Assembly: GCA_027858275.1 (NCBI GenBank)
Contig: JAQIDA010000101.1
Coordinates: 1-35,304, forward strand
Reading direction: 5' to 3'
DNA from: Candidatus Kapaibacterium sp.
GTDB taxonomy: Bacteria > Bacteroidota > Ignavibacteria > Kapaibacteriales > UBA2268
DNA length: 35,304 nt
Below, in pieces: positions 3,869-27,074 of the stretch (position 1 is the stretch's first letter; the number at the start of each line of letters is the position of its first letter). Under the pieces are notes generated by a model that saw only the letters and a list, made by a program, of their open reading frames with translations, had not been told where the DNA came from and ran no database searches. A program made the translations under genes and the position numbers.

Positions 3869-3884
3869 GAAGAATTTTGTATCT

Positions 3885-3918: not shown

Positions 3919-4004
3919 AAAATTTGGTTCATATAAATGAAATATATTTTGAATTATGAATTTTGGAGGAAACATAGAATAAACGTTTGTACAACTTATA
4001 TTTA

Positions 4005-4122
4005 GGGCTTTAAAAGCCCGGTGAAAACTCCCGAGCGAATGTAGTACTTCTTCACAATCCATTGTGACGAAAGCATAGGTCTTCCCTGTACTGCTGCTAT
4101 AGTAGCCGCTGTATGGGCTCGG
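4005..4122 (+). ncRNA. Candidate structured 5' leader RNA upstream of the 841-aa surface protein
   Basis: Nested complementarity: GGGCTT/AAGCCC (4005-4019); CCGAGC (4031-4036)/GCTCGG (4117-4122); GTAGTAC (4041-4047)/GTACTGC (4088-4094); TCACAAT/ATTGTGA (4052-4067); CTGC-tata-GTAG (4094-4105). Confidence 0.5.
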
Positions 4123-4195
4123 ATGTGCTTCTAAGTAGAAATGCTTAGTTTATGACATAATTGTGAAAAATCGGTAATAATACTGATAGATATAG

Positions 4196-4251
4196 AACTA
4201 CTCTTGCGTAGTTTTGATTCTTATTGCAGAAGACCCTGTTTTTTGCAGGGT
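4196..4251 (+). promoter_or_regulatory. Two leader hairpins, the second attenuator-like
   Basis: AACTAC-tcttgc-GTAGTT (4196-4213) and ACCCTG-ttttttg-CAGGGT (4233-4251), about 70 nt before the ATG at 4321. Confidence 0.45.
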
Positions 4252-4320
4252 TTGTCGTGTCGAAAAAGAGACTTTGGAATAAATAATTACTTGTTTTATT
4301 AACAACAGAAGGAATCAGAA

Positions 4321-6846
4321 ATGACTACCTTAACTTTTACTAAACGTTTTTTATCGCTCGTAGCACTAATGGGGATTGTCCTCATGGCTACAGGGCTCCA
4401 CGCTCAGAATTTGGTCAATGGCGCCGAAGGTGTTATTGTGAATTATGGAACAATTAAATTTGTCGTAACAGACGGTGAATTTCAAAATGAAAATGCCGAC
4501 GGTACTATCGCCACTATCTTGGATAATGATAACGGCACAATCGAATTTGCGAACACTGACAATGTGTTTGCAGGTACAAATGATATCGGCGCCAGTACGG
4601 CTATGCGTCTTGGCGGTTTAATGTTGTATTCTCTTGGAACGGCAACACAGAACATTCAAGGTCGTTATTATACTAATCTTGAAATGGCAAACGGTACCGC
4701 AAATACCGCTGTAGTGAAACAATTTGGTGCTTCTCTTGTTTATTGCTCAGGCGCTTACACTGCAGCCGGTGCTGATCGCGACTATGGTACAGGTGAATTT
4801 TCTTATGACGGAGCTGCTGCTCAGACTATCTTCGCTGAAGCCGGTGCTACAGGTAATGCTAACATCTATAACATTTTGAACTTTGAAGATGTCGGTGTAA
4901 AAACTTTGACTGCCGGTGAAACAAATAATGTTGAAACTTCTTCAACAATGCTTGCTTCAACAGTTGGCGGCGGTGTTGACATCCAAGGTATTTACCAGTC
5001 ATTAGGTAATGCAACTTTCGATCAGATCGCCAACGCCGGTGATTTGCTTGTTACCGGGGCCGGTGCTGAATACAACAATACTAACGGTGCAGCTACTTTT
5101 AACGCGAACGTGACTGTTGCAGCCGGTACGATGACTGCAGGCGGAAGCGGCGGTATGACATATAACACCGGACTTTTGGCAGTTAGTGCTGCAGGTGCTG
5201 TAAGAACAAACGGAACTGCAGGAGACGGATTAGGTGATATCACTTTCAATTCAACTACAACCGTAATAGGAACAAGTTTCTTGACTACTGACGGTGACGG
5301 TGACTTGATTGTTAATACCGGTACTGTAACTATTACTGACGGTACATTCGGAGTTACTGCTACCAGTGACAACGGTCAGGGTACTATCAACTCAGGCGGT
5401 ACATTAGCTCTTGCTGATGTAGGAGGATCCGATGCTTTGGGTCACGTGGATATTGCAACCGGGCAAACTCTTGAAAATACCGGTATATTCACTAATGCAA
5501 CAGCATATGCCAGCAGAACAAATATGCTTTTTGCTGATGATTCAGAAATGATTTATAACGGTGCAGGTCAGTCTATCGTTGGTACAATTGCTGCAAATCC
5601 TTATGGTAATTTGCAATCAATTGGCGCAACAAAAGCCGGTGCTGAAAATCATATTAATATTTCGAGTGATTTACTTGTAACAACTGAAGTGCTTGATATG
5701 ACTGCAGGCGCAGGCCCATTTACATTGACAATGCTTGACCATACAGGTGAGGCACTTTATACAGGTTCAACAGACGGTGTTGTATTTGAGGTTGCCGGTT
5801 CATTCCAGAGAATGTATAATGTATATGATGGAGGTGACGCTTACACCGGTGCTACACCATTAACATACAACAATGTTGACACAAAAGTCAGCATAACAAC
5901 ATTAGGCAGTCTTGTTGACTTGACACTGAATATTTTACCTGAAACGAATCCTGATCCTTCAGTTCCGGCATTTAGCTTAGCTACTGATGTGAATCGTAAA
6001 ATTACATTTTCATACAATAGTACAGCAAATGATTGGGTTTCTGAAGTAACTATGGGTTATAGATCAAGTGAAGAACCAACAGACGGAGACGTTCCGATCG
6101 CAGCCTTGCGTTTCAGAGAATATGAATCTCCCACCAACCCATCTCATAAAGTATCGACTAATGAGTTGATCGGCAGAAGCACACCAGCTGATTATACTGA
6201 TGGTTTTGCATGGATCTCTTTGGCAGGTATCGAACCGGGTACCGGCACTACGCTTGCTGAAGTTATTAACACTAATGACTTGTATTTGAGCGGTGCTCCA
6301 ACATCATTTATCACTATTAACCACGGTCGTTGGTCAAATCCTGCAACATGGGATGAAGGCATTCAGCCGAGTTCAAGTGACTTTGCTATTGTTCGCCACA
6401 ACGTTCATGTTGGTTTCCGTAGAACCTCATTTGACGGTGGTGTTGCAGGCGGTCAGAATGATGAAGGCGACTTTGCCGGAGTTACTAACGATCGCTTAGC
6501 ATCAGAGATCGAAATTATTGTACCTGATGGCACATATACAACTCCTGCTCTTATCTTTGGTAATAATGTCGGCGGCGCAACTGATGAAGAGTTACCTTTA
6601 ACTCCATGGAAACTTGCTGATGTCTCTACTGCTAACCTGACTAACTTGAATGCCAATGCTACAGGTACAGGTTTAGCCGGGTATACAAGTACAGTGTTTG
6701 ACAACGATGTTCGTAATAGTGCTACAGCAAACTATTATCACGGTTTGATGTTCTTGAACACAAACACAGCAGTAACATTGCTTACACTGACAAACAGTGG
6801 TGCAATGGCTGTTGGTGAAGATGTTACAGTAACAGTTGGTGAATAA
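4321..6846 (+). CDS. Secreted S-layer/adhesin-like beta-strand repeat protein (841 aa)
   Basis: Signal peptide MTTLTFTKRFLSLVALMGIVLMATGLHAQ; very rich in Gly/Ala/Thr/Asn with few Lys/Arg; beta-repeat motifs such as FSYDGAAAQTI and MIYNGAGQSIVG; GRWSNPATWDEG module near the C-terminus. Confidence 0.85.
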   Translation: MTTLTFTKRFLSLVALMGIVLMATGLHAQNLVNGAEGVIVNYGTIKFVVTDGEFQNENADGTIATILDNDNGTIEFANTDNVFAGTNDIGASTAMRLGGLMLYSLGTATQNIQGRYYTNLEMANGTANTAVVKQFGASLVYCSGAYTAAGADRDYGTGEFSYDGAAAQTIFAEAGATGNANIYNILNFEDVGVKTLTAGETNNVETSSTMLASTVGGGVDIQGIYQSLGNATFDQIANAGDLLVTGAGAEYNNTNGAATFNANVTVAAGTMTAGGSGGMTYNTGLLAVSAAGAVRTNGTAGDGLGDITFNSTTTVIGTSFLTTDGDGDLIVNTGTVTITDGTFGVTATSDNGQGTINSGGTLALADVGGSDALGHVDIATGQTLENTGIFTNATAYASRTNMLFADDSEMIYNGAGQSIVGTIAANPYGNLQSIGATKAGAENHINISSDLLVTTEVLDMTAGAGPFTLTMLDHTGEALYTGSTDGVVFEVAGSFQRMYNVYDGGDAYTGATPLTYNNVDTKVSITTLGSLVDLTLNILPETNPDPSVPAFSLATDVNRKITFSYNSTANDWVSEVTMGYRSSEEPTDGDVPIAALRFREYESPTNPSHKVSTNELIGRSTPADYTDGFAWISLAGIEPGTGTTLAEVINTNDLYLSGAPTSFITINHGRWSNPATWDEGIQPSSSDFAIVRHNVHVGFRRTSFDGGVAGGQNDEGDFAGVTNDRLASEIEIIVPDGTYTTPALIFGNNVGGATDEELPLTPWKLADVSTANLTNLNANATGTGLAGYTSTVFDNDVRNSATANYYHGLMFLNTNTAVTLLTLTNSGAMAVGEDVTVTVGE

Positions 6847-6867
6847 TTCTAAATTTATAATTTAGAA
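6847..6867 (+). terminator. AT-rich hairpin immediately after the stop codon
   Basis: TTCTAAAT-ttata-ATTTAGAA. Confidence 0.5.
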
Positions 6868-6892
6868 CGTGATTAATAAAACAGGTATAACT

Positions 6893-6917
6893 CGGAGGGC
6901 GATAAGCTCGCCCTCCG
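6893..6917 (+). terminator. GC-rich intercistronic hairpin (attenuator / mRNA stabiliser)
   Basis: CGGAGGGCGA-taagc-TCGCCCTCCG, perfect 10-bp stem, no strong U-tract. Confidence 0.6.
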
Positions 6918-6941
6918 ATATTAATAGGACTCACTCAAAAC

Positions 6942-9002
6942 ATGCTTAAAAAAATGAAAATATTGTCAAATATATTGATCCTTATAGGATTTATTCTCCT
7001 TGCAGTTCAGCAGCCGAGCAATGCTCAGCAGCTGAACAGCACGGGGAATATTATCAATAAGGGCAAGATCATTGTCAAACAACAGGCAGTGATTGAGCAA
7101 GCGTCAATAGACGGTGAAGTTGAGTTTGTTTGGGATCGAGACGGAATGAGACAATATATACCTCAAATTTCTTATGAAAGCGTAAAATTTTCGGGTAGAA
7201 CACCAAAGTATTTGAGTGATACTACTAAAATTCTCACGGCACGCAAAAAATTCGTTTCGGAAATAACTGAAATCATAATGGTTCCGCAATCAATGATCTA
7301 CTCGCAAGGGGTTACCGAGCATGAGGCTCAGATTAATCCTGCCTATGGATACGGAACGGTAAAACTCAACGGACTGAATGCTCAGGATATATCGGGCAAA
7401 GGCGGCTTCAAAGTGCTTGAGCTTGACAATTGGTCAGGTGCGGACGTCATCAAAGGGGGCGGTTTTGTGGTAAACACAAAATTAGAACTAACCCGCGGCG
7501 AGATGCGCAACGACTCGGTCAGTAATTTCCTGATGAAAGATTCCGCGTTGATAGTCCGTAACGACGAAGGATCACTGAGATACGAGGCGAACTTCGAAGA
7601 CCATATCGATGTTCACTATATCGGATCGAACACTTACTCAATCGCAACCGGCGGAGAAATCCCGAGCGATCCGGCAATCTTGCAGACAATGCAGGTGAGG
7701 AATCGCGGCGGCGTAGATTTGAGCATGGACGTTACAGTAAACGATACACTGCTTGTCGCAAGTCATGTAAACACTGAGCCGACGGCAGACCTCAAGGTTT
7801 TGACCTATACATCGGCAAAGAATCCAATATATGAGGAACATGACGCAGAAGTAATCGGCAGTCTCAGACGAACAAATCTCAAAACAGACAGTTCGCAGAT
7901 ACTGTTCAACAATCGTTATACTTATGCACTGTTTGAAAATGCGGCAGCGGCAGGAGCAGTGAAAGAATTGACTTTCAGAGTCAAACCACTGGAATGGCCG
8001 ATCTTCACATTGGACGTAGACAGAGTAAAAAGATATTTTGCCATAAGCGCGCGCGACGAAAATTCCTCAGACCTGAGCGCTGTTCCGAATATGCAAGTCG
8101 GCTACGGCTGGCGTCAATTCGATGACAGTGTAGAGGTGGATGAGTCGTTGATATTGCGCAATAGTTTCGCAGAACTCGGATTCGAGCGATGGGTAAACGG
8201 CGAATGGGAATTTATAGAAAGCTCGCAAATGCCTGCTCAGCTGGACGGAGCTCTGGGCTGGGCTTATAGCTATGCGACAATAGTAACGGAATTCGGCGAA
8301 TTCGCTGTTGGTTTGAATACAAGTATGCCTTTGCGCATGAGAGCCATAGCGTTTTTGGAAGGCGCGTATCGCAAGGAAATGATGTCGGATGAACTCCGCA
8401 TTAAAAAGCTGATACCGACCACCCCGGATAATTCATATCCTTATAATCTCGATCCTACACGGGCTTCGATTGCGGTGATCGCGATCCCTGATTCGGTAGT
8501 TGATTGGGTGGTTCTCGAATTTAGATCCTCTCTGACCGGCGAAGCCTTGTTCTATAAGACCTGCTTTGTCAGAACAGACGGAACGTTGGTGAACCAACAA
8601 GGTGACGAGTGGATACAGTTGGATGCATTCAGAAGAAATGCTGAATTCTACGTGGCAGTGCGTCACAGAAACCACTTGAGCATAATAACAGAGAGCAAAA
8701 TGGAGTTTGTAACAGACTCCAATTTGAACGTAATTGATTTTACTAATCCGTCATTAGTACTCGGCGGCTCAGCCTCCTTGAAGCTAATCGGCAGAAACTC
8801 ATTGGGCAAGTTGATATTCGCAATGCCCGGCGGGGATACTGACGGCAACGGAGAAATCAATCGTGACGATCTGGAAAGAGCATGGATACAACGTGACAAC
8901 GAAGGATATTTGAGATCAGATATCCACATGAGCGGAATTATCAATACAAGAGATTTTAACTATATCTGGAACAATCAGGGGCGTACAAGCCAGATCAAAT
9001 AG
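6942..9002 (+). CDS. Secreted protein with beta-repeat N-terminus and C-terminal dockerin-like EF-hand pair
   Basis: Signal peptide MLKKMKILSNILILIGFILLAVQQPSNAQ; repeat VKLNGLNAQDISGKGGFKVLELDNWSG; C-terminus GDTDGNGEINRDDLERAWIQRDNEGYLRSDIHMSGIINTRDFNYIW. Confidence 0.85.
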   Translation: MLKKMKILSNILILIGFILLAVQQPSNAQQLNSTGNIINKGKIIVKQQAVIEQASIDGEVEFVWDRDGMRQYIPQISYESVKFSGRTPKYLSDTTKILTARKKFVSEITEIIMVPQSMIYSQGVTEHEAQINPAYGYGTVKLNGLNAQDISGKGGFKVLELDNWSGADVIKGGGFVVNTKLELTRGEMRNDSVSNFLMKDSALIVRNDEGSLRYEANFEDHIDVHYIGSNTYSIATGGEIPSDPAILQTMQVRNRGGVDLSMDVTVNDTLLVASHVNTEPTADLKVLTYTSAKNPIYEEHDAEVIGSLRRTNLKTDSSQILFNNRYTYALFENAAAAGAVKELTFRVKPLEWPIFTLDVDRVKRYFAISARDENSSDLSAVPNMQVGYGWRQFDDSVEVDESLILRNSFAELGFERWVNGEWEFIESSQMPAQLDGALGWAYSYATIVTEFGEFAVGLNTSMPLRMRAIAFLEGAYRKEMMSDELRIKKLIPTTPDNSYPYNLDPTRASIAVIAIPDSVVDWVVLEFRSSLTGEALFYKTCFVRTDGTLVNQQGDEWIQLDAFRRNAEFYVAVRHRNHLSIITESKMEFVTDSNLNVIDFTNPSLVLGGSASLKLIGRNSLGKLIFAMPGGDTDGNGEINRDDLERAWIQRDNEGYLRSDIHMSGIINTRDFNYIWNNQGRTSQIK

Positions 9003-9079
9003 TTCTGATTTTAAATTTTCTTGTATTTATAATTATCGGAGACAGTGATACAGAAAATTGTTTGTAAATAGAGTTTTGA

Positions 9080-9110
9080 CGGCATAGCGGCGACAGCCTG
9101 TGTTATGCCG
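9080..9110 (+). promoter_or_regulatory. Intergenic stem-loop
   Basis: CGGCATA-gc-GGC-gaca-GCC-tgtgt-TATGCCG, a 7-bp outer stem and a 3-bp inner stem. Confidence 0.5.
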
Positions 9111-9218
9111 GACACTTAGGAACGACTACAGCACTATAAAAAAAAGAAGATAAAAGAAGGATATAACAATTAACTATTCCATACAACATACACTGCAATC
9201 GCTGAGAAAGGACAGACT

Positions 9219-10517
9219 ATGAGAACAATGATTAAATACTCAATATTGATTGTTGTCTTCTCCATAGTGATGTCCCAAAACGCGGTATCTCAACGTACAG
9301 ATACACTGGTGACGGTATGGATAACTAATGTTGAACGTCCGGCACCTGATGAGCTTCAGTTTGATTTGCTTCTGGCAAGTAATTCCGAGGAGCTGATCTA
9401 TTGGGCAAACGGTACATTTGATATAGCATTCGCCTCAGGTTTTGTGATTGATCCTACAACAGTGTCTCTCAGTTTAGAAGCTGTTCAGGATGTGATTTAT
9501 CAACCTTTAGCCGGCGATCCGATTCCCACGGATACCTATTATATGACTCCAAGAATATTCCCCGGCAGATTCAGTATAACGATCGTAGGCCCTGAACTCT
9601 ATGTGGACACCTATCCGATATTGCCTTATGACACATTGCGTCTCGGCAGATTCAGTGTAAAAACCACAGACGGAACGAATCTAACTTCAAATTTCATGTG
9701 GCTGAATCCTATCTATTATTATCAGGCATTGGCATACAAATTAGACAAACCCTTGATTTTGCCCCCGTCGAATATATTGGCGGAAGTAAATCATAATATA
9801 GAATTTTCTGATATAAACACGCTTTATACAGCCGAATACAAGGCTCAGGACATCGACAAACCAGAATTCATACTTGATTATTTCAATGTGGAATATATTG
9901 GTAAGATGGTGATGCAGATAGATTTCGCCACAATTCAGGAAGCATATAACTATGGCTTTATTATTACTCGCGCCTATAAGTACAGGTCGACTGATGACGA
10001 AGCTACGTTGGATTATAAAGATACAATCGCTCATTACAGAATCGGTCATAACAGATATAATCCTGACTTGGTAGGACTCGGCACCCGAAAACCGGGCAAA
10101 GTCTACGCAACTCTGTATGACACAGTAGACCACAGACAGTTGACCTATTGTTATGAGCTCTTGTACCAAGATTGGGATTGGAATATTAATTTCCTCGCGA
10201 GAGATTGCGAGTTTGTCCCGCACGCTTTGATCACCGAAGCATTCACAGCCCCGTCGCCGTTCAGCCACGAGACAACGATCACATACAGAGTTGAGGATAA
10301 TGTACTAATGTCCGCAAAAGTATATGATCTGCGCGGCAAGCTGGTCAGCACAATATTTGAGAACAAAGAACATCCTCCGGGATACCATACGGTGAAATAC
10401 GTAATTCCGGATTTCGCCTCAACGGGAGTATATAACATATTCCTCAGAGCGGTGCCGGTCGATGATCCGGACGTAGAATATTCTCAGGCAGTTATAAAAA
10501 CGCAATATATAAAATAA
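9219..10517 (+). CDS. Secreted protein with C-terminal T9SS type A-like sorting domain
   Basis: Signal peptide MIKYSILIVVFSIVMSQNAVSQ; C-terminus APSPFSHETTITYRVEDNVLMSAKVYDLRGKLVSTIFENKEHPPGYHTVKYVIPDFASTGVYNIFLRA. Confidence 0.85.
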   Translation: MRTMIKYSILIVVFSIVMSQNAVSQRTDTLVTVWITNVERPAPDELQFDLLLASNSEELIYWANGTFDIAFASGFVIDPTTVSLSLEAVQDVIYQPLAGDPIPTDTYYMTPRIFPGRFSITIVGPELYVDTYPILPYDTLRLGRFSVKTTDGTNLTSNFMWLNPIYYYQALAYKLDKPLILPPSNILAEVNHNIEFSDINTLYTAEYKAQDIDKPEFILDYFNVEYIGKMVMQIDFATIQEAYNYGFIITRAYKYRSTDDEATLDYKDTIAHYRIGHNRYNPDLVGLGTRKPGKVYATLYDTVDHRQLTYCYELLYQDWDWNINFLARDCEFVPHALITEAFTAPSPFSHETTITYRVEDNVLMSAKVYDLRGKLVSTIFENKEHPPGYHTVKYVIPDFASTGVYNIFLRAVPVDDPDVEYSQAVIKTQYIK

Positions 10518-10545
10518 TAAGCTAATGTAACATCACAGGAAATCC

Positions 10546-12495
10546 GTGAACAGAAAATTCGAATATATAAACACAAAGATGAATAAGATCAAAGCGATTG
10601 GCGCTGCTCTTGTTCTGTTGTTGTTTGTCGGAAGCAATCTGTTCGCCGATGTGAAGATATTATATCCTCTCAACGGAGAAATCCTGAGAGCCGGCGAGAC
10701 TACAGAAATCCGCTGGGAAAGCATTCCTAATTCAGTATACACAGTAAAGTATTCAACAGATGAGGGTACGACTTGGGAGTTGATCGCGGAAGATATAACA
10801 GCAGACAGATACAACTGGTCGGTTTTGACGGATATATTAGATGTTAAATTCCGAGTAGAAGAACGCAGCACAATCCCTCCGAGACTTTTGCGCCGGATGG
10901 AAGACGTTCACGATCATAATGTTTATTCAGTAGCGATGTCTCCTGACGGACAAAAAATGATCACAGCAGGCCGCGACATGAGAGTAAAAATATGGAATAT
11001 CAGCGATCTGACATTAGACGAACAGATAGTCACAGGCGACAGCGGGTCAGTCTATGACGCTATGTTCGCGGGCAACAGCGAGTCAATAATATATGTCAAA
11101 GAGAACGAATTGGTATACAGAGATTTAACAGACGACAGCGAAACAACGATGACAGGATTGTTTACGGATCTAATCAGATCAGTCGCATATCATAATGAAA
11201 AAGATATTTTTGCCGCCGCGTCATACGACGGTAATATGAAGATATTTACAAAAGCCGGATTTACTGAAATCGCATCGTATTCAACGGGTGCGGAGTCAGA
11301 ATTATACAAAATAGTCTTCTCGCACAGCGGCGATTTGGCGGCATTCGCGGGCGGCGCGGGCATAATCTATATATTTGATATACAGAACAACACAGTTATT
11401 GGTCAGATGACAGGTCACGGCGACGTAACGAATAAATTGGTATGGTCTCTGGCATTTTCGCAGGACGATCAATCATTAGTTTCATGCGGAGTTGACGGCA
11501 CGGTAAGGGTCTGGGATTTGACCACATTCGAAGAAAAAGTTTTAATTGACGCGCACAGCTTCCACATTCGCGCAGTTGATTGGCATCCTACTGAAAATAT
11601 GATATTATCCGCTTCTTTGGATAAATATATTAAACAATGGGATCCGACTGACGGTGCAAAAATCAGTGAATCGATGCAGCACGGCGGTCAGGTGTTAGAC
11701 GCAATGTATTCGTCCACGGGCGACACAATCATAAGTTGCGGTCGCGATCACGCAATGAATATATGGAAGAATATCCAAACGGATTACAGCGAGGACAGCG
11801 TTGATTGTCTCGTGAGATATCCTGCGACCGTTTCATTGCCGCACATTGTAAGTGCCGCGGACAGAAAAGTAAAAATTCCGCTAATCTTTGAATCAAATTT
11901 GATTCCTCCGGGCGGCGAAAATAAGTATTTCGACGCTGAAGTCAGCATTGAAATTCCTTCAAAATTATTAGATATATCCCTTCAGGGCGAACATTATATG
12001 CTGTTCAATGATCCTGACACAGTGAATATCAGCTTAAAATCAATAATCTTAGACGGAGCGATTCTGACCCTCGACGGTTTGACGATTGCCGGTATCCCGA
12101 ATATAGCTGATTTGAAGATATTAAACATAGAAACTACAGATGAAAATTATTACATCATAGATAAAATTGACGGTTCGATACGAGTACCCTCTGATTGCAT
12201 AGGAGATTCTTTTCGCGGCGTAAGCTTTGCTTCGGAACCGCTTTCAATGAAACTGAGCCCTGCTCCGGTTTCGTCAACAGTCAAAATCAGTATGAATTTG
12301 ATCGAAGAGGGCAGGCACAAATTAGAACTAATCAATTTGCAAGGCGAGATAATAAGTGTTTTGGAAGTCGCGGATTATAATCCGGGACCGCATATAACAA
12401 CAATTGATATGTCGGATTTTGCCTCGGGACATTATTTCTTGAGAATTGTCGGTCCGACTCGTTCCTTAACCGGATCATGTGTGATTTCGCGTTAA
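10546..12495 (+). CDS. Secreted WD40 beta-propeller protein with N-terminal Kre9/KNH-like domain and T9SS type A-like C-terminus
   Basis: VKILYPLNGEILRAGETTEIRWESIPNSVYTVKYSTDEGTTWELI; WD40-type repeats (HNVYSVAMSPDGQKMITAGRDMRVKIWNI, VWSLAFSQDDQSLVSCGVDGTVRVWDL); C-terminal LSPAPVSSTVKISMNL...HKLELINLQGEIISVL...GHYFLRIVG. The GTG at 10546 has an upstream caggaa; an ATG at 10579 is the alternative start. Confidence 0.85.
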   Translation: MNRKFEYINTKMNKIKAIGAALVLLLFVGSNLFADVKILYPLNGEILRAGETTEIRWESIPNSVYTVKYSTDEGTTWELIAEDITADRYNWSVLTDILDVKFRVEERSTIPPRLLRRMEDVHDHNVYSVAMSPDGQKMITAGRDMRVKIWNISDLTLDEQIVTGDSGSVYDAMFAGNSESIIYVKENELVYRDLTDDSETTMTGLFTDLIRSVAYHNEKDIFAAASYDGNMKIFTKAGFTEIASYSTGAESELYKIVFSHSGDLAAFAGGAGIIYIFDIQNNTVIGQMTGHGDVTNKLVWSLAFSQDDQSLVSCGVDGTVRVWDLTTFEEKVLIDAHSFHIRAVDWHPTENMILSASLDKYIKQWDPTDGAKISESMQHGGQVLDAMYSSTGDTIISCGRDHAMNIWKNIQTDYSEDSVDCLVRYPATVSLPHIVSAADRKVKIPLIFESNLIPPGGENKYFDAEVSIEIPSKLLDISLQGEHYMLFNDPDTVNISLKSIILDGAILTLDGLTIAGIPNIADLKILNIETTDENYYIIDKIDGSIRVPSDCIGDSFRGVSFASEPLSMKLSPAPVSSTVKISMNLIEEGRHKLELINLQGEIISVLEVADYNPGPHITTIDMSDFASGHYFLRIVGPTRSLTGSCVISR

Positions 12496-12540
12496 GCGAA
12501 ACTTGAATTAGAATATTAACGGTATAGAGAGTTATCTTAT

Positions 12541-15372: not shown

Positions 15373-15375
15373 AAT

Positions 15376-18300
15376 ATGAAGAGAATTGTTCTATATATTA
15401 CTTTGTCGTTGTTTGCGAGCTTCCTAATTAAATCGGAAGTATCGGCACAGACTACTGTTACCATGAAGTCCGGTTCGGGTTTATATATTAGCCCCGGCGC
15501 GACCTTCCATGTTAACGGCGGTTTGGTCAATGAAGGTACTATAACAGGCAATACCGGTAGGCTGAATGTTAGCGGTACTTATACGAATGAAGGAACGCAC
15601 AATGCTTCAAGTTCGACTATTTCTATTGGCGGAGACTTTGTTGATAATGCCACTTTCAACGTCGGGACTTGTACGCTGATAATGAACGGTCCGTCTTCTC
15701 AGACGATAACCGGTTCTGCAACAAATTCATTCTATGAATTATCAATAAATAAGACCGGCGGAATTCTCTATACTGATAAAGAATTGACAATCACTAAATA
15801 TTTGAGATTATTGTCGTCGCACAAGTTTGATATAAATGCTAATGATTTGATAATCGCTGAGACCGGCGAGATTTATTCAGATAACGCCGACGGTCAATAT
15901 TTCCATTCGGATAAATATATTGTAAGTTCACAGAGTTCTTCTACTGCCACAAGCGGGTATTTGATCCGACAGATACCACAAGGGACTCCCCCGTCACCTG
16001 ACGGAGTTGCTTATGTGTTACCCATTGGTAACGTAAATGGTTTTGGTTCTGCAATTATCAGATTTTTGCCTGATAAAGTTACTTTTTCGGCTAATGCTGA
16101 TTTGAGAATATTGCCGGTACCGGAAGAACATCCTAATTTAATTGTATCAGATCGTTCATTGCTTAAATATTGGCGTCTTGAACATAATAATATTACAATC
16201 GCAGACAGTGGCACGCATCTAAAATTCTACTATGATCTTTCAAATTCGGAAGTTGGTGGAGGTTCGGAAGGTAACTATATACCGTTATTTTGGGCAAATC
16301 CGGGTTGGATCACCCAAACAGGTGTCGGTAGCAGTCTAAATAGTACAACTAATGAAATACTATCCGAATTCTCGCCTTTAATCGCAGGAACTATAGAGGG
16401 TGATTGGACAGCAGGAGAAATTGAAGCTGCCGTTGCGGTTTATTACAGTCTTGGCGGACCTTGGAGTGTAAACACTTCATGGTCAAACGGTGGATATGGT
16501 CAAGCTCCTGCAGCTTTCGCTCCTTCTTCAAGTTCAGATATTGTTAGAATTGGTGAGGGGGAAACAATTACGATTAATTCAACCACAGCTATTGTCGGAA
16601 CAGTAACTGTGCAAGTTAACGGCAGACTGGATTGTGTCGGCGAAGCAGATCTTAGTGCCTTAGAATTTACTCTCGAAGAGGGAGGAACTCTCGGAATTGG
16701 CAGTGCTTTAGGAATAACAGATATTAACGGTGCTGACAAAGCCGAAGGGAATATTCAATCAACAGAGGTAAGAGATTTTAGCTCAGGTGCCGAATATCGT
16801 TATACCGGAACTTTAGATCAGATTACCGGTTTAGGTCTGCCGCTGACAGTCAGCAGACTCGTTTGTGATAAGACGAGCGGAAACTTGTTGCTGGCAAGGA
16901 ACACACAAATATCATCTTCATTTCATATTGAAGACGGAGTATTTAACGATAACAATAACAAGTTAGACGGGCAAACAGCCAGTCGTACTTTCACTATGAA
17001 TGGCGGTACGTTTATTGCTCACGGTCGTTTCCCCTTAAATTATGAACCTCCGACATTTAATGCCGGGACTATTTCATTCCAAGGAACCGGTGATTTGAAT
17101 ATTCCGTCAAGCGAATCCGCTTCGGAAACTTTGGCAGGGGTTGATCAATATTTCAATCTTGATGTCGCGGGAAACAGGGGTTATATAACAAGTGTTATAT
17201 TCATGCCGCAGGGTGAAGTAAGAATTGGCGGAGCATTGACTCTTGCTGACCTCGGTTGGACTTCAACCTTCCAGGGTGTGGATCATGTTCTAACAGTGAA
17301 TTCGACAATTCATTTTAACGGCAGCGGCGATCAGTCTATTCCGAGATATACCGATGATTTTCCCAACGGAGATGATTATCAAATAAAATATTATAATTTA
17401 AAAAGTTCAGGAACCGGAACTAAAAGTCTTATCGAAGCTGATTGTGATGTTTTCAATGATGTGATTATCGAAGGTGCTACTTTGCATGCCAATTCTTTCA
17501 ATATGAAAGTTCTGGGAGATTGGACAAATACTTCCGGCACATTTACTCATGATAATCAGCTGGTGACTCTATATACTCCTTCTGAAGGTATTGAAAATAC
17601 TATTACAGCCGGCGACAGTCCGTTTTGGAATTTGGATATAGGAAATGCAGCTGACGAAGCAACCGGAGACTATCGTTTGCTTGATGATATGACCATAGAA
17701 AACGGCTTCCATATATTGAATGCCAAAGCTGAATTGTTGATGAATTCATCAACATTTACCGTCAAAGGAACTTGGCTCAACGAAGGTACTTTTACTCCGG
17801 GTACGGGAACTGTACTTTTCAACGGCCTCGCGGCTAATCAGCAGATAACAAAAACAGGGACGGAAACTTTTTATAATCTTAAAATAGACAATTCAGGTAA
17901 TGTACTTGTTCCGGTCGGTTGTGATGTGGACGTTGCAAATGACTTAGAATTTGTTGCCGGCAACCTTGATGTTCGTACCAACGATCGTATAGTTTCTGTT
18001 TATAATAACACTACCAGAACCGGTACCGGACATGTTGACGGTCATTTGAGATTCAATGTCCCTGAGGGAGCAGTCGGCACAAAAGACTTGCATATTGGTA
18101 ACGGTACTGATTATTCACCTGTAGCAGTTGAATTTACAGGCACTGACGGAACAGCAGGATACTTGGATGTCATAACAAATGATCCCCAGACAATAGGTAT
18201 TCCTACGGATTTCAATGTGGCCAAATATATTAACCGACAATGGGAAATGTCTGTCCCTACAAATAGTGATTTTGTGTTGGGGACGAGAACCTATAATGCT

Positions 18301-21300
18301 ATATTGACTTATTTGGATGCAGATAAGGTCGGTGGTGCAAATCCTTTATTGTTGGAAACTCAGATATATGACGGTGCTTGGAACGCGACACAAGTCGGAA
18401 CAAGAACAGAAACACCAAATACTTGCCAATCTGTGGGCAACACAGTTATAGGTACATTATTCCTCGGTGAGCCTAATATATTCAATTTATACAGTATTTC
18501 AGACGGCGGCAATTGGTCAAATTTTGAATCATGGTCATCTGAAGGATACGGCAAAAGCAGCGTCCCTTCTACTTTCCCGATTGACGGTAATTCAAGATAT
18601 TATATAGGTGACGACAAAACAGTTAATCTCGGCTCTAATTTTACTATTAATGCCGGACGCGAAATTGTGGTTCAAGTGGATGGTAGTCTGGATTGTTCGA
18701 CAAACACAATCGACGGCAGCGGAACATTCACACTACAAAGCGGCAGTAGTCTTCTCATTGGTTCGCCTGACGGTATTGCGGCTTCCGGTGCAACGGGAAA
18801 TATCCATACTTCAACACGTTTGTTCAATGGCGTCGGCAACCATAATAGCGGCAATTTTGTTTATAACGGTGCTTCTGATCAGTTTACCGGTGATGGTATA
18901 CCGGATACTATTTCAACAATTGAAATCAATGCGCCCGGATATACTGTTGAGATGTCAAAAGATATTTCTGTAGCGGATACTTTGAACATTATTGATGGTA
19001 CATTAGATGTTTCAACATCAAATTACAGTATTGATATTTCCGGCGATTGGGAAAATACAGGAACATTTACTGAAAGATTAGGAGCTGTTACTTTCAACGG
19101 CAGCGAAGACCAACTGCTCAGAAATATAACCGGATACGGAGAGACATTCTATGACTTGGTTGTCAATAAATCAAACGGAGTTCTCGAATTAGATCAGAAC
19201 TCCGATATTTTGATTTCAAATCAATTGTCATTAACAACCGGATATATTGACGCTCGGTCGAATGAGGAATCTGTGACTGTTCTGGACGGTGCGACTGTCA
19301 GCCGGACTTCCGGCCATGTTGACGGCGAAATGAAAAAACATGTGCCGGCAGGAGCGACAAGCTCTGATATCGTATATGAAATTGGTGAAGGTTTGAGTTA
19401 TACACCTGCAAATCTTGGTTTTGTAGGAACCGGAGGAACTGCAGGCTATGTCAGAGTGAGTTCGGAGCCGGATAAACACGATGATTTTAGTGAAGATAAT
19501 AATTTGGATCCTGCCAGAGTTGTTGAACGACACTGGGATCTGTCTGCTGACGGTGACTTTGATCTTGGGCAAGACAGATCTATTAATGCTACTGTTACAT
19601 TTTTGAATCCTGATGATATTAACGGCGGGGCGGATCCCGAGAAATTCGTTATGAGATATTGGGCGGAAACTGTATGGAATTCAGCTGAGACCGGTTCTTG
19701 GACTGACACTACTACTCAAGGAACGAGTATTAGTTCTTTATGTGATATAATGGTAGGTCCGACAGGTCCACTACTTACGGTATATTATTCCAGCACATCA
19801 GGTTATTGGGACGATCCGAATACATGGTCTACCGTAAAATACGGCGGTGTTCCGGACGGATCCACACCGAGGAACAACGATATTGTTTTTATTGGTGATG
19901 GTGATCAAGTAAATTTAGGAGAAAGCAGAAGCATCCGATCAGTTACCGTTGAGAGATCACCCGGCGGTACAGGAAGCTTATTCTTATCTGATTCTGTGCT
20001 TTCCGGAGCACAATTTGTACTGAAGACCGGTGGTGTGTTAGGCATTGGTTCAGCTGCCGGCATAACTACAGGCACAACCGGAAATATTCAAACTAAAATC
20101 AGGAATTTCAATCCCTGGACACACAATTCCGGAAATTATATATATAACGGAACGGGCGACCAAGTTACAGGAAATGCATTACCTGCTGAATTTGCGACTT
20201 TAGAAGTAGATAACAACAACGGTACGGTTACTCTGCAAAGCTCAATAGGTTTGAGCTCTGATCTGACTTTGACGGATGGTATTCTTAAACCGTCGTCATC
20301 GGCAGTTGATGTTAATTTAGCGGGAGATTGGATTAATAATGCGTCTGTTTCGGCTTATGACGCTACCTCCAACAAAGTAACATTTGACGGTGAATCAAGC
20401 AGTACGATCAGTGGAACTTATGCAACAACGTTTTATAATGTTGATCTGGATAAATCGACATATAATCTCTCCTTAGAGACACATGCAACAGTTGCAAATG
20501 AATTTACATTTATCTCTGACGGTTTGCTTGTTCTCAATTCAAGTGATTTGACTATCGGCACAGCCGGCAGCATTGGCGGATCATCCCTCGGCAGTTCGAG
20601 AATGGTTCAATCTGACGGTACTGACACAGGCGGAAGAATTATTAAATTGTATTCGGGCTCGGGTTTGAACGCTTTCACGATTCCGATTGGTGTCGGCTCG
20701 GATTATAACCCTGCAGAGTTGAATGTTGCCGCTACTTTTGACGCCGGAGCTTATGCAGCTCTCAGACTGGTATCGGCTGTTCATCCGGATGCGATAAGTA
20801 CTGAAATGTTATCCAAATATTGGAATGTCAGTTCGGAAGGGATTTCAAATAATCTAGACTCTGCTAATTTAAAATACTATTATCTTAGTTCTGATGTTAA
20901 CGGAACTGTCGCGAATTACATGGCTGCGAGATACGCAAATGATGCTTGGGAAACTAACTTAGGTACATCGCGTGACGCGACAACTTCACCGATAACCGTT
21001 TTAGGTTATACTGAAGCTTTGGATGGTGATTGGACAGCCGGTGAAGCTACCGCGATATACAAAGGCAGAATCTTTTATAGTAGGGCCACAGGTAATTGGG
21101 GAGATGCGACAAGTTGGTCAAACGTGTCTCATTTAGGTTCGCCGTCAGCTTATACACCCGGAACTTTTGAGTCTGATACTGTGTTTATTGATGCCGGGCA
21201 TGTAATTGATTATAATCTTACATCCGTAACCGTAGGAGCTGTTACAATAGGCGGCGCTGAAACAGACGACGGCGATTTAGAATTTATACCCGATCTTAAC

Positions 21301-24300
21301 AAGACAATGACAATATTGGGTGATTTAACTATAGAATCTGACGGTTTCATGGATCAGGCCGGCAACGGCGGTCGAATTGATACTCTGTATTTACACGGCA
21401 ATCTTACAAATAATAATATAGGAACAGATGCCGTTGATTTGCGCCAAGGTGATTTGAGTTATACCATTTTGGAATTTGTAGGTGAATCAAGTTCTACAAT
21501 TTCCGGGCCGGGGAAATATAGGCTTTCAGGTGTTCATATCGATAAAGAAGCTATTACGGATATAGTCTATAATGAAGCAAGTGAATTCTCTGTTGCTTTG
21601 ACTGAAGCTGTCGGCGGTGATGATGATTTGGACAGACCTTTCAAATTGTTGACGGGTGTATATTGTCATAACAATGACGGCAGAGCCTTACTTGAAAGAG
21701 ATGAATTACCTTTAGCCGGTTTTGTTATGGGAGTCAATTCCGGAATTGATATTCGAAAGGGTGAATGTGCCTTTCTTGATGAATTTGAAACTAATACAAA
21801 CACTTTAGTTAGTATCAGCGGCGGTAAACTTGTTGTAGGAAATGGCCAAAATGAAGATTTCTTGTACGGATCCGGCACTAAGTATACTCAAAGCGGAGGT
21901 GAAGTTAACGTTTATGCGGCCTTCTCGGTCGTCAACACAACTTCTTCGATTAATTTTGATATGTCGGGCGGTTTTCTCACTGTGGTTATCGGAGATCATA
22001 GTAATGATGATGAAGGTCATATTGGATTTGATATACGAAGTCCGAGTTCGACCTATACTCAAAGCAGCGGTACAATAACGCTTGTAAGTTATTCTTCAAA
22101 TAAAGATTATGAAGTAAAAGCCTCAACAGTAAATGTAACCGGCGGAACTTTACAGATTGGTAAAGACGGTTTTTATCTTGGAGGTACAGGTGCTTCAATA
22201 GGTATTGGCAATGACAAACCGACTATATGGGATTTAAATATACGTTTTACTATGATGGGCGGTACTACTTATCGATCAATGATTATAACATCTCCTGTAT
22301 TGTATGTTCTGAATAATGTTGATATTCATCATTACGGATGTTTGGATCTTAATACTCTTTCTCTGTCTGTAGGCGGCAATTTTATAAACCGTGGCATGTT
22401 TACTTCAGACGGGTTGGGTTGGAACTCCGGCATAGGAGCAAAAGAAATAATTTTCAAGGGTGACAAAGATGTGATCGTCGCGACACAAGATTTTGTCAAC
22501 GACAACCCGGACGGAGCGACATTTGTTAACGAAGCATTCTACGATATTACCGTAGATAAGACCGGTGGTTCGATATCTCTCGGTGATTTTCCGTATTCTG
22601 ATATGATTGTCAGAAATAATTTAACATTCGCGGATAATAATGTTGCTAATATTATTTCCCGAACCAATGACAGATACGTTCATGTGGATCCTCAGGCAGC
22701 CGGTGATGCAGCGGCTGTCCAAAGAGTAGGTCTTGGATTTGTAGACGGCAGACTTAGAAAAGAAATTCCGTCAGATGACAGTTATACAAAATTTGAAATT
22801 GGAGCAGGAGCGGTTTACAGACCTGCGATATTGGAAATCCTTGGTACAGGAGGCAGCAATGCGCAGGAAGATGTGGACTTTATGGTTACGGACAGCAATC
22901 CGGCCAATATCCTCGAAAACCAAATAAATTTGGATTTGGACTTGAACATTCAATGTTATTGGACATTCTCTAATCCTGATGTTTTTGACCTTGACGGCAG
23001 GACATTTCATTTAACTCTTCAGTTTGACCCGAAGGATATTCCATCGGGTGGAAGTTGGGCTACATTAAATCAGTATTATGCCTCGTCAGTACCTTATTCG
23101 ACAACACAGATTGGTTTGCGAACCGACACTAGCACGCAATCACTCAGCAATTCTTTGTTGGGGGATTATATCTTGGGTGAAACTATCGGCTTTAATTATT
23201 TCTCAATTGCCGACGGCGACTGGAACGATGAAAACACATGGTCGAAAGAAAGTTACGGAGGACTTCCTGCGCCCGAATATCCTGACGGAGAAAATGATCG
23301 TGTTTATATTGGTGACGGAAAAGAAGTCATATTAAATAAAATTGTAAATACCAGAGGAGTTATTGTCCAGTCTTCAGGCGGGGGTGGTCAGCCGGGTGCT
23401 TTGTACGGCAAAGTTGACTCTTGGCTGCGCGGATTATCATTTATCCTTGAAGACGGAACAACTCTGTCTACTGAGCATTCGAACGGAATTACCGAGGCAG
23501 GTTCAGAAACCGGTTCAATTCGTACTGTTGCCCGTGATTACCGCTACTCACATTATAAATATACCGGCAAGGGGCAGAATCAATCAACAGGTCAGGGACT
23601 GCCGGACAGAATTATGTCACTGACGGTTGATAATACAGGTGTTGACGGCCAGAACACAGTAACTTTGACAAAGGAAATAGATTTTGTCGAAGATCTAAGC
23701 ATACTCAACGGTGTCTTTGATACAGGGTCTAAAGAGATTAAAATCGGCGGAAATTTCCTGATGGAAAACAGAGACACAAACAGAACAGAGTTTGAGGCAA
23801 GAACCGGAAAAGTAGTTTTCGAAGGTGATCAGGAGCAAATTGTTACAGTCAATGATCCGGGTGATTTAGAGTTTGAGCGTTTGATGTTGAATAAAACCGG
23901 CGGTGCTTTCCGTATGGCAGGAAATGACGCTGATGCAGACATACTTGTCAGAAGTTTGTTGAGATATGAGGCGGGTAATATAATAAATGTCGACGTCAGA
24001 ACGAATGACAGAAAACTAATCATTGAAAATGAAAATGGTGCTGAAATAGTGAATACCGGACTCGGCTATATTAACGGAAAACTGCAGTTGACAATACCCC
24101 CTGGTGAGTCCTCAACCACTTATTCAATTGGTTATTGGGACAATTATATGCCAATGACAATGACTATGGTAGGGACAGGCGGCATCCAAGGTCCTGTTAC
24201 AGCTGTGGTAGATTCCCTTGATGGTGATGATGAAGCGATTGTCAACAAGAAAATTGATCTGTATAGGAGTGTCCGGAGATTTTGGCAGGTTGAAGGTTTA

Positions 24301-27009
24301 GATGCATTTGCTCTTGCCGACAGAACAGTAATAACAAAGTTTGAATTCTCGACCGATTTCTTAGACTACTTTGACTATATCAGCGCGGTTATGCGCCGAA
24401 GAAGTATTCCCGATGAAGATCCGATTTGGTCAGGTATAAGAGGAGACCAATTGCTTTGGGACGTAGATTTAGTTTTAGAAGTAGCGTCTGTGACAATTAA
24501 AGACGTGTACCCGTCTAAGTATTGGCCCGGTTTAGGTAAGATATATGTGGGCGAAATGGCCACCAGAAAATTTTATAGTATTGACGGAGGCGGATTGTGG
24601 AACGATCCTGCGTCCTGGTCATTTGAAGGACACGACGGCGCCCCTACTGCGGGAGAATTCCCGAATAAGGACTGGCAGGCAGAGATTGATATTGATATGA
24701 GAGACATTGTTTGGATTGGTGACAATGATGAAATTATTTTAAATACATTGCCTGAGATTTCTGCACTTGAGATTCGCGCAACCGGATCACTCGTTATTCC
24801 CAATGACAGTGAATACGGTTCGGCAAGGGTCATTATACCGAGTTCTTTCGGATCTTCAAGGTTTGAAATGTTAGAAGACGGTTTGTTGGTTATCAAATCA
24901 GAATCAAGTTTAGAAAGCGGCGATGCCGGAATTATCCGATTCGCAGATGATGTGAGAACATATTCTCCTTTGGCTGATTTCGAATTCTCAGGTTCTTATG
25001 ATCATTATATTGGCGGAGCATTTCCTTCTGAAATAGGAGATTTGACGGTTAATACTGATATCAGTTCCAGATTAGTTTCTTTGAATTCAGGTAACTTTAT
25101 TATAAACAGAGATTTTAATATCCTGTCCGGTGATGTGCGACCTATGGATGCAACGACAAATGTGCGTTTGGGCGGAAGCATGATAATTGACGGAACTTAC
25201 AACGGTACTGTCAATCCGTCCGGTTCTTCAATATTATCAACGTTTACGTTCCAAGGCGGCGGAGATACGAATCAGGTTATCACAGGAACAGGTATTCCTA
25301 TGTTTGCCGATGTTACAATGAACAGGGGATCAGGGTCAGGTGCCGTTGATTTGGAAACAAGTATGACCATCACTCATGTTATGGATCTTCAAGAGGGCTC
25401 AAACACTAATCCGCAAATATTTTCTGTCGGCGACAATCAGCAGTTATGGATTACTAATCATGATGTGAATGCAATAATCGGTTACGGAGATACTACAGAT
25501 GTTCGTATGGTCAGAACTGCTGTCAGCACCGGCTCAAATTCTACTGTGGGTCTTTTGATGCGTGCAGTTACCCAGCCGCAGTCAGAGTCTTATATATTCC
25601 CGGTAGGCTCGTATGCTACTGAAGCAGGAGTGAATACTTATTCTCCTGCAGTATTTACTCCTGAAAATTCGGGAAGTGCAGGTTATATCGGTGTCAGGGC
25701 TTCTCGAGGAACCGGAATAAATTATAATCATGCAAGACTTTCAACAGTATCCCCAAATTATCTTCAGAGATATTGGACTCTTGATGCAATAACTGCTACG
25801 ATTCCGGGGCAGTGGAGATTCAATTATACTGACGGTGATGTTTTTGGAAATGAAACGGATATCGGAGTAATTTCAAAATACAATCCAGTCTATGAAGCAG
25901 CAAGCGGAACCTGGACTACAATCAACGGAACAATCAACCGATCGGCAAATTATTTCGAAACACCGGCGAGTTACCAACCCTCTGATTTCACGGGTGATTA
26001 TACTATGTCAAATGCTCGAAACTTCGGAGTTTTCTTCTATAGTCGCCAAAGCGGACCGTGGGATGAACCGAATACTTGGACTTTTTCACCTACACATTCG
26101 GGTGTGGCGGCTGACACTTATCCTCAAATAGGCAGTGATAATGTTGTTGTCGGAGGCGGTCTCTATGATTTGAACCAGCCCGATCATATTGTCTCGGTTA
26201 CAGAAGATATAAATACAATCGGTGATATCATTGTCGGTACTGACTTAAATAACACAGGTACTTTGAACTGCGGTCCTTATATCATCGAAGGTAGTTCATT
26301 TGAAATCAGAGATCATTCTACATTGCAAATAGGGTCTCCTGTCGGTATTTATGAAGTTGCCACTGTTGGAAATATTCAGACAACGTCAAGGCTTTTTGAT
26401 ACTGAAGCAATTTATGAGTTTAAGGGTGCAGACACTTCCGACCAAACTATGGGAGACGGCATGCCTTCTACTGTATTTGGGTTCATTGCAAATCATCAGG
26501 ACGCAACTCATAGTTTCTCGCTGGTTCTTGACAGAGATGTAAATGTTACTAAATTTGCAGATCTTATTGGAGGCAGAACTGATGCAGGTGATCACTATCA
26601 ATTCACTAATACCGCAACTGTTCCTGCTGATGGTCAATTTATTATTCGCGATGGTGCAGTATTGGCAATTGGCGGAACCAGAATATTTGACGGATTAAGC
26701 GCAAACAGCGTAACACAGGACTTTGTCCAAACAGCTGTTGGATATTTACTTGAAGTTGACAGTAATGTTGAGTATTACGGTAATCACACAATTACACCTG
26801 CACCAAATGACGGAGTAGGATACGGAAACGTTCTTCTTACCGGAAGTTCGGCTTGTATAATTAATCAGACGGTATTGTGTCGCGGTAACTTTTCTATACT
26901 GGACAACTCCTCGATTAATATTAATAACAGTTACAATCTTAAAGTGTTGAAAAATGTTGTTAATGAATCAGAAATTGAAAATAACGGTCTTATTGAGATT
27001 GGTGAATAA
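15376..27009 (+). CDS. Giant (3877 aa) secreted modular beta-repeat surface protein
   Basis: Signal peptide MKRIVLYITLSLFASFLIKSEVSAQ; about seven modules each starting (Y/F)(Y/F)S...G.W.....(S/T)W; recurring YNG.(S/G)DQ.TG.(G/A)(I/L)P, (F)NG...Q.I.G....FY.L.I.K..G, IG.G..Y.P and (Y/H/F/Q)W.(L/V/F/M) elements. Confidence 0.9.
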   Translation: MKRIVLYITLSLFASFLIKSEVSAQTTVTMKSGSGLYISPGATFHVNGGLVNEGTITGNTGRLNVSGTYTNEGTHNASSSTISIGGDFVDNATFNVGTCTLIMNGPSSQTITGSATNSFYELSINKTGGILYTDKELTITKYLRLLSSHKFDINANDLIIAETGEIYSDNADGQYFHSDKYIVSSQSSSTATSGYLIRQIPQGTPPSPDGVAYVLPIGNVNGFGSAIIRFLPDKVTFSANADLRILPVPEEHPNLIVSDRSLLKYWRLEHNNITIADSGTHLKFYYDLSNSEVGGGSEGNYIPLFWANPGWITQTGVGSSLNSTTNEILSEFSPLIAGTIEGDWTAGEIEAAVAVYYSLGGPWSVNTSWSNGGYGQAPAAFAPSSSSDIVRIGEGETITINSTTAIVGTVTVQVNGRLDCVGEADLSALEFTLEEGGTLGIGSALGITDINGADKAEGNIQSTEVRDFSSGAEYRYTGTLDQITGLGLPLTVSRLVCDKTSGNLLLARNTQISSSFHIEDGVFNDNNNKLDGQTASRTFTMNGGTFIAHGRFPLNYEPPTFNAGTISFQGTGDLNIPSSESASETLAGVDQYFNLDVAGNRGYITSVIFMPQGEVRIGGALTLADLGWTSTFQGVDHVLTVNSTIHFNGSGDQSIPRYTDDFPNGDDYQIKYYNLKSSGTGTKSLIEADCDVFNDVIIEGATLHANSFNMKVLGDWTNTSGTFTHDNQLVTLYTPSEGIENTITAGDSPFWNLDIGNAADEATGDYRLLDDMTIENGFHILNAKAELLMNSSTFTVKGTWLNEGTFTPGTGTVLFNGLAANQQITKTGTETFYNLKIDNSGNVLVPVGCDVDVANDLEFVAGNLDVRTNDRIVSVYNNTTRTGTGHVDGHLRFNVPEGAVGTKDLHIGNGTDYSPVAVEFTGTDGTAGYLDVITNDPQTIGIPTDFNVAKYINRQWEMSVPTNSDFVLGTRTYNAILTYLDADKVGGANPLLLETQIYDGAWNATQVGTRTETPNTCQSVGNTVIGTLFLGEPNIFNLYSISDGGNWSNFESWSSEGYGKSSVPSTFPIDGNSRYYIGDDKTVNLGSNFTINAGREIVVQVDGSLDCSTNTIDGSGTFTLQSGSSLLIGSPDGIAASGATGNIHTSTRLFNGVGNHNSGNFVYNGASDQFTGDGIPDTISTIEINAPGYTVEMSKDISVADTLNIIDGTLDVSTSNYSIDISGDWENTGTFTERLGAVTFNGSEDQLLRNITGYGETFYDLVVNKSNGVLELDQNSDILISNQLSLTTGYIDARSNEESVTVLDGATVSRTSGHVDGEMKKHVPAGATSSDIVYEIGEGLSYTPANLGFVGTGGTAGYVRVSSEPDKHDDFSEDNNLDPARVVERHWDLSADGDFDLGQDRSINATVTFLNPDDINGGADPEKFVMRYWAETVWNSAETGSWTDTTTQGTSISSLCDIMVGPTGPLLTVYYSSTSGYWDDPNTWSTVKYGGVPDGSTPRNNDIVFIGDGDQVNLGESRSIRSVTVERSPGGTGSLFLSDSVLSGAQFVLKTGGVLGIGSAAGITTGTTGNIQTKIRNFNPWTHNSGNYIYNGTGDQVTGNALPAEFATLEVDNNNGTVTLQSSIGLSSDLTLTDGILKPSSSAVDVNLAGDWINNASVSAYDATSNKVTFDGESSSTISGTYATTFYNVDLDKSTYNLSLETHATVANEFTFISDGLLVLNSSDLTIGTAGSIGGSSLGSSRMVQSDGTDTGGRIIKLYSGSGLNAFTIPIGVGSDYNPAELNVAATFDAGAYAALRLVSAVHPDAISTEMLSKYWNVSSEGISNNLDSANLKYYYLSSDVNGTVANYMAARYANDAWETNLGTSRDATTSPITVLGYTEALDGDWTAGEATAIYKGRIFYSRATGNWGDATSWSNVSHLGSPSAYTPGTFESDTVFIDAGHVIDYNLTSVTVGAVTIGGAETDDGDLEFIPDLNKTMTILGDLTIESDGFMDQAGNGGRIDTLYLHGNLTNNNIGTDAVDLRQGDLSYTILEFVGESSSTISGPGKYRLSGVHIDKEAITDIVYNEASEFSVALTEAVGGDDDLDRPFKLLTGVYCHNNDGRALLERDELPLAGFVMGVNSGIDIRKGECAFLDEFETNTNTLVSISGGKLVVGNGQNEDFLYGSGTKYTQSGGEVNVYAAFSVVNTTSSINFDMSGGFLTVVIGDHSNDDEGHIGFDIRSPSSTYTQSSGTITLVSYSSNKDYEVKASTVNVTGGTLQIGKDGFYLGGTGASIGIGNDKPTIWDLNIRFTMMGGTTYRSMIITSPVLYVLNNVDIHHYGCLDLNTLSLSVGGNFINRGMFTSDGLGWNSGIGAKEIIFKGDKDVIVATQDFVNDNPDGATFVNEAFYDITVDKTGGSISLGDFPYSDMIVRNNLTFADNNVANIISRTNDRYVHVDPQAAGDAAAVQRVGLGFVDGRLRKEIPSDDSYTKFEIGAGAVYRPAILEILGTGGSNAQEDVDFMVTDSNPANILENQINLDLDLNIQCYWTFSNPDVFDLDGRTFHLTLQFDPKDIPSGGSWATLNQYYASSVPYSTTQIGLRTDTSTQSLSNSLLGDYILGETIGFNYFSIADGDWNDENTWSKESYGGLPAPEYPDGENDRVYIGDGKEVILNKIVNTRGVIVQSSGGGGQPGALYGKVDSWLRGLSFILEDGTTLSTEHSNGITEAGSETGSIRTVARDYRYSHYKYTGKGQNQSTGQGLPDRIMSLTVDNTGVDGQNTVTLTKEIDFVEDLSILNGVFDTGSKEIKIGGNFLMENRDTNRTEFEARTGKVVFEGDQEQIVTVNDPGDLEFERLMLNKTGGAFRMAGNDADADILVRSLLRYEAGNIINVDVRTNDRKLIIENENGAEIVNTGLGYINGKLQLTIPPGESSTTYSIGYWDNYMPMTMTMVGTGGIQGPVTAVVDSLDGDDEAIVNKKIDLYRSVRRFWQVEGLDAFALADRTVITKFEFSTDFLDYFDYISAVMRRRSIPDEDPIWSGIRGDQLLWDVDLVLEVASVTIKDVYPSKYWPGLGKIYVGEMATRKFYSIDGGGLWNDPASWSFEGHDGAPTAGEFPNKDWQAEIDIDMRDIVWIGDNDEIILNTLPEISALEIRATGSLVIPNDSEYGSARVIIPSSFGSSRFEMLEDGLLVIKSESSLESGDAGIIRFADDVRTYSPLADFEFSGSYDHYIGGAFPSEIGDLTVNTDISSRLVSLNSGNFIINRDFNILSGDVRPMDATTNVRLGGSMIIDGTYNGTVNPSGSSILSTFTFQGGGDTNQVITGTGIPMFADVTMNRGSGSGAVDLETSMTITHVMDLQEGSNTNPQIFSVGDNQQLWITNHDVNAIIGYGDTTDVRMVRTAVSTGSNSTVGLLMRAVTQPQSESYIFPVGSYATEAGVNTYSPAVFTPENSGSAGYIGVRASRGTGINYNHARLSTVSPNYLQRYWTLDAITATIPGQWRFNYTDGDVFGNETDIGVISKYNPVYEAASGTWTTINGTINRSANYFETPASYQPSDFTGDYTMSNARNFGVFFYSRQSGPWDEPNTWTFSPTHSGVAADTYPQIGSDNVVVGGGLYDLNQPDHIVSVTEDINTIGDIIVGTDLNNTGTLNCGPYIIEGSSFEIRDHSTLQIGSPVGIYEVATVGNIQTTSRLFDTEAIYEFKGADTSDQTMGDGMPSTVFGFIANHQDATHSFSLVLDRDVNVTKFADLIGGRTDAGDHYQFTNTATVPADGQFIIRDGAVLAIGGTRIFDGLSANSVTQDFVQTAVGYLLEVDSNVEYYGNHTITPAPNDGVGYGNVLLTGSSACIINQTVLCRGNFSILDNSSININNSYNLKVLKNVVNESEIENNGLIEIGE

Positions 27010-27038: not shown

Positions 27039-27074
27039 AATCCGATGATTATTTATTATCATCGGATTTTTTTT
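27039..27074 (+). terminator. Rho-independent terminator of the giant gene
   Basis: AATCCGATGAT-tatttatt-ATCATCGGATT followed by TTTTTT; perfect 11-bp stem. Confidence 0.9.

Follow-up and report, generated by a model that had tools for sequence, protein, structure and literature searches.

We propose, at a probability of roughly 0.55, that a conserved locus of the Kapaibacterium order makes one T9SS-exported cell-surface assembly, likely an adhesion structure or an outer coat, anchored by an outer-membrane barrel protein that we call X. The window, the whole stretch of 35,304 nucleotides that was analysed, is an entire contig (C323) of a 2.68 Mb Candidatus Kapaibacterium genome that is 85% complete. 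Judged by gene order, its block of six genes (A to F; Table 1) is a rearranged copy of this order-specific locus, from which X, a receiver and a kinase have moved away and in which E and F have been placed after D. The locus points to an undescribed surface structure that has a dedicated signal for attachment or joining, because a C-terminal tail common to A and F was found in no other protein searched (a small protein preceding A in some lineages apart) and the cluster is kept across the order. With its own outer-membrane anchor and sensor over ten family-level groups, the locus probably encodes a core surface structure of the order. Few modes of sorting and anchoring surface proteins are known in Bacteroidota, and the tail would add one to them should it serve for sorting or joining. 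Our literature search returned nothing on the surface biology of Kapaibacteria.

The original prediction, made from the letters of this DNA, described six plus-strand genes with short gaps (3-216 bp), each with a signal peptide, and the ORFs agree with it: six co-directional reading frames span 4321-27009, separated by 95, 216, 28, 45 and 3 bp, and a signal peptide is recognisable by eye at the start of all six products. The block had been started at position 4005, which falls within a leader region upstream of the first gene. Gene D opens at a GTG, and an internal ATG at 10579 gives a proper signal peptide, so the gap between C and D is 28 bp from the GTG or 61 bp from the ATG. The T9SS translocon is present in the genome (SprA_N, 154 bits, on contig C262), and the type A T9SS signal matches there 141 times, in about 120 cases above the curated cut-off.

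Table 1. Features of the window, in window positions.
Feature	Positions	Strand	Description
Candidate structured 5' leader RNA upstream of A	3995-4170	+	MFE -50.2 kcal/mol, z -2.9
Gene A	4321-6846	+	841 aa, secreted; divergent form of the shared tail at the C-terminus
Gene B	6942-9002	+	686 aa; beta-rich N-terminal part related to A
Gene C	9219-10517	+	432 aa; order-specific N-terminal half
Gene D	10579-12495	+	WD40 propeller; ORF 10546-12495 is 649 aa from the GTG
T9SS type A signal of D	12259-12468	+	Por_Secre_tail (PF18962/TIGR04183)
Gene E	12541-15372	+	943 aa, tail-fibre-like
BclA/C1q-like tip of E	about 15010-15363	+	Weak: BclA_C 1.2e-4, below cut-off (Pfam)
Gene F	15376-27009	+	Giant protein, 3877 aa, with 8 related modules
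Tail of F, VVNESEIENNGLIEIGE-stop	26911-27006	+	Profile match 1.6e-8, sole match in own genome
Intrinsic terminator-like hairpin after F	27039-27068	+	11-pair stem and T run

Of 60 relatives, 48 have a match to A and 58 one to C, although for C several of these cover its common C-terminal domain only. In 37 of the 60, drawn from all ten families sampled, A and C share contig and strand and are a few kilobases from each other; the remaining relatives, without this pairing, mostly have contig ends there, at least one of them (G041) showing no evident edge. Twenty-four neighbourhoods, selected for having matches, were mapped, as were the named loci. The usual order is response regulator, E, F, A, B, C, (D, in family f1), X, receiver and CHASE-PAS kinase, often with an added TPR protein and in several cases with NAD synthetase upstream (named from sequence). 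Named relatives with the locus are Candidatus Kapaibacterium or Kapabacteria MAGs, including the closed genome CP058732.1 (L104). Median gaps in the relatives are 8 bp for B-C, 10.5 bp for C-D, 2.5 bp for C-X, 33 bp for X-receiver and 26 bp for E-F, and the median of 216 bp between F and A leaves room for separate promoters. Lineages without F have a small protein of 127-168 aa directly before A.

The locus is not universal, since a full-length C is present in 38 of the 46 order genomes listed and missing from 8, some of which are complete (G036, G037). Outside the order C matches only over residues about 160-414, the same gene order was not found there, and full-length B and C are confined to Kapaibacteria. 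The gene-order conservation that had been looked to across FCB genomes thus holds for A-B-C throughout the Kapaibacterium order and does not reach across FCB. The retention of this neighbourhood over ten family-level groups supports a functional unit, as had been proposed for the six genes, whereas the natural unit is larger than these six: X, receiver and kinase belong to it, and E-F can separate from it. Two public records, named Chloroherpeton thalassium and Bradyrhizobiaceae (L115, L120), carry the Kapaibacteria locus and for that reason are probably mislabelled Kapaibacteria MAGs.

X is an outer-membrane barrel, usually with a C-terminal OmpA domain (PF00691, 1.8e-15 in a relative's X). 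In family f2 it is a barrel without the OmpA domain (hhalign 99.7%, E 1e-26), and where lineages lack F, D or the kinase it still follows C, there as a bare barrel. The X of the window's own genome and that of one relative match OmpA and not PorP_SprF (PF11751); the latter model has no match in the own genome, in a search whose control was uninformative. That no membrane partner accompanies the block, as first remarked, is true of the window and false for the system: X, receiver and kinase lie intact on another contig (C102:900-5227), so the missing partner exists in the same genome.

The window order deviates in that E-F follows D, while elsewhere E-F lies upstream of A. In one relative (G032) the E-F pair and A are on different contigs, and in another (G008) F and A are separated by a contig end only; the placement of E after D in the window may also be an assembly join rather than a rearrangement. 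Near the block, on the minus strand at 29404-32492, are a LuxR-type response regulator and a multi-PAS HisKA_3 kinase. That this pair regulates the cluster is not established, the similarity being generic; more distant relatives (L126, L127, L129) carry genes with the C-terminal module of B beside response regulator-kinase pairs like it.

The repeat modules said to be shared within the block are real. F consists of eight related modules, starting at residues 1, 355, 1036, 1469, 1900, 2608, 3066 and 3552 (module cross-matches), which a BLAST self-comparison did not detect and a full-sensitivity profile search revealed; A and B have a region of about 360 columns in common (hhalign 98.7%), and a segment of A matches the end of F (profile comparison, 95.3%). 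A gave no Pfam family in 22 relatives apart from one chance match, and its description as S-layer-like is without database support. It has a single G-x-W...W module header, at residue 669, which is invariant in the 22 relatives. Neither A nor the end of F has a Pfam or NCBIfam match, and thus neither has a known T9SS CTD (type A, B or C), the type C model being contained in NCBIfam. The N-terminal region of E and the G-x-W...W modules of F resemble widespread secreted modules of Bacteroidota.

B contains a conserved VDWV/HRNHL module (alignment) and a widespread C-terminal module. Its end, at about 8832-8975, is weakly dockerin-like (PDB dockerin chains, E 0.006-0.6), Pfam gave no dockerin match on B, and no cohesin matched on the window proteins; a cohesin in C as the partner of B's dockerin was rejected, the searches having given it no support. 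The structure model of B (pLDDT 85) has no fold match in the PDB at E<=1e-3. The C-terminal domain of C, at about 10218-10514, resembles a type A signal in degenerate form. Por_Secre_tail matches weakly in 5 of 25 relatives (best 7e-4), and the C-terminal ends of C and D match each other (E 0.002); C is a candidate, and likely, carrier of a type A T9SS signal. D is the secreted WD40 protein that had been foreseen, with a certain Pfam match (4e-37), and its type A signal scores 31.5 bits against a cut-off of 27 (TIGR04183: 24.1 against 23). The D of one relative also carries this signal. D orthologues occur in family f1 only, and 11 mapped relatives have one flanked by C and X. The naming of B as dockerin-like and of E's tip as C1q-like thus corresponds to weak matches. 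E and F are retained in relatives as a neighbouring pair.

Homologues of F in relatives measure 3474-4840 aa and normally lie just upstream of A, and no type B CTD was found in F. A model of its end (mean pLDDT 78, built with eight sequences) gave no significant fold match in the PDB. Like the two-partner secretion proteins FHA and HxuA, the locus has large secreted beta-helical proteins, and the end of F is similar, non-significantly, to TPS domains; unlike them, it includes no TpsB-type transporter. With fold matches at E of at least 0.16, F as two-partner-secretion cargo was rejected.

Although A and F are different proteins otherwise, their C-termini have a common tail with a consensus of about NxGx[ILV]xNxGxIEIGx-stop, which in the window's A is divergent and missed by the tail profile. 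A regular expression for the tail matched 54 of 1495 neighbourhood ORFs (counted over two partly overlapping ORF sets), every one being A, F or the small protein before A. The tail profile gave 17 strong matches in 12 whole genomes, 17 of 17 being one of these same three proteins, and 24 matches at E<=1e-4 in 245 class genomes, all 24 within the Kapaibacterium order; mapped tail carriers were A, F or the small protein that replaces F. No match to known sorting domains was obtained for the tail. A general sorting tag was rejected, because the tail is restricted to these proteins and occurs at most two or so times per genome, against the 141 type A matches. We tentatively suggest, while thinking it less probable than its opposite, that the tail is a new locus-specific signal for C-terminal sorting and attachment, recognised by the barrel-OmpA anchor X; such a cargo-anchor pairing would be kept throughout the order and would not rely on T9SS domains of type A, B or C. 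The tail could be no signal at all, but only the last coil in which a solenoid naturally ends.

In the assembly that we favour, the block products would be exported by the T9SS, with C and D held at the surface via their type A signals. X would collect and hold A and F there through the shared tail, by analogy with PorP/SprF and type B cargo, and would link the assembly to the cell wall. F and A would be beta-solenoid rods and E a fibre with a binding tip, and a two-component system would control the structure in its likely role in adhesion or as a coat. We infer that the products physically co-assemble. Several observations count against this explanation: X is not PorP/SprF by sequence, the genome's own X is off the block, the tail of the window's A is divergent, and the dockerin and C1q assignments are weak.

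Known systems offer partial parallels. A PorP/SprF barrel, usually the product of an adjacent gene, is required by type B T9SS cargo and retains it, and PorE links the type B cargo system to peptidoglycan via an OmpA domain (PMC12618676, PMC9143113). As in SprB-SprF and PG1035-PorP-PorE, the Kapaibacteria locus places large secreted proteins near an outer-membrane barrel, has cargo without a type A signal, includes a peptidoglycan-binding part of OmpA type, which in those systems is PorE and in this locus is fused to X, and occurs with a T9SS translocon. In contrast to those systems, A and F have neither a type A nor a type B CTD, X has its own OmpA domain and no PorP_SprF match, and the barrel follows C or D rather than the giant. 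Tail-fibre-like and multi-module adhesins of Bacteroidota are comparable in that the C-terminal module of B is widespread, and differ in that here one conserved order-specific locus includes A, C and X.

Other explanations fit parts of these data. In one that we regard as unlikely, the tail is a structural joint: the uncapped beta-solenoids F and A would stack their last coil onto the initial coil of A or B, in the order F-A-B, to form one rod or sheath. The tail of F is modelled as ordered strands up to its last residues (block pLDDT 87-93), a similar motif, GxIxNxGTI, is present at the mature N-termini of A and B, and most relatives possessing F show the gene order F-A-B. However, similarity between the tail and the N-terminus of B is weak (15% over 17 columns), motifs of the tail type are common in solenoid rungs, F and A are not linked in G032, and in the window F lies downstream of A. 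It is similarly doubtful that the locus encodes a co-regulated set of individual surface proteins (adhesins, fibre, propeller), inherited jointly without forming one structure. The ability of E-F to move independently, the confinement of D to one family and the small protein that some lineages have instead of F would all be expected of separate proteins, but A-B-C(-X) is retained order-wide with near-zero gaps, and neighbouring, otherwise different products have the tail in common. Finally, F is giant, modular, secreted and found in a T9SS genome, and its cargo-barrel neighbourhood resembles sprB-sprF (PMC12618676), yet we give very little credence to F as a SprB-kind gliding adhesin moved over the surface by the T9SS/gliding motor, as F lacks a type B CTD, X matches no PorP/SprF model, and the cell-wall-binding domain of X favours a fixed anchor over gliding.

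Upstream of A, the candidate leader gave no Rfam match, is present in one copy in its own genome and had no homologue in 53 other family genomes. It was rejected as a known or conserved riboswitch, the lone match (G282:C28) being a chance one of about 26 bases at a gene end. A terminator-like hairpin follows it at 4224-4248, before A; in the half of the block with A to E (3600-15400) hairpins are at chance level, with 9 found against 9.3. In the stretch on the F side they are about twice the shuffle mean, and the hairpin after F is alone there in having both a long stem and a long T run (1 found, shuffle mean 0.0 in that stretch), in agreement with the strong terminator reported after the last gene.

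Further genes were noted around the locus. In the window, the contig start truncates a CotH kinase-like protein at 3-3101, which has a type A T9SS signal as well as three lamin-tail domains. One relative (G009:C98; L059, L060 and L201 joined) has an ORF of 8395 aa about 7 kb downstream of C, with no match to F. In another (G042:C13; L065, L066) four proteins of about 1500 aa stand in a row downstream of X; G044, too, has after X a protein that is similar to these in size and in how its sequence begins. Between genes of the window, GGGCGACCACACAGGGATCGCC occurs in two copies, at about 3208 and 3888, and resembles a dispersed palindromic repeat.
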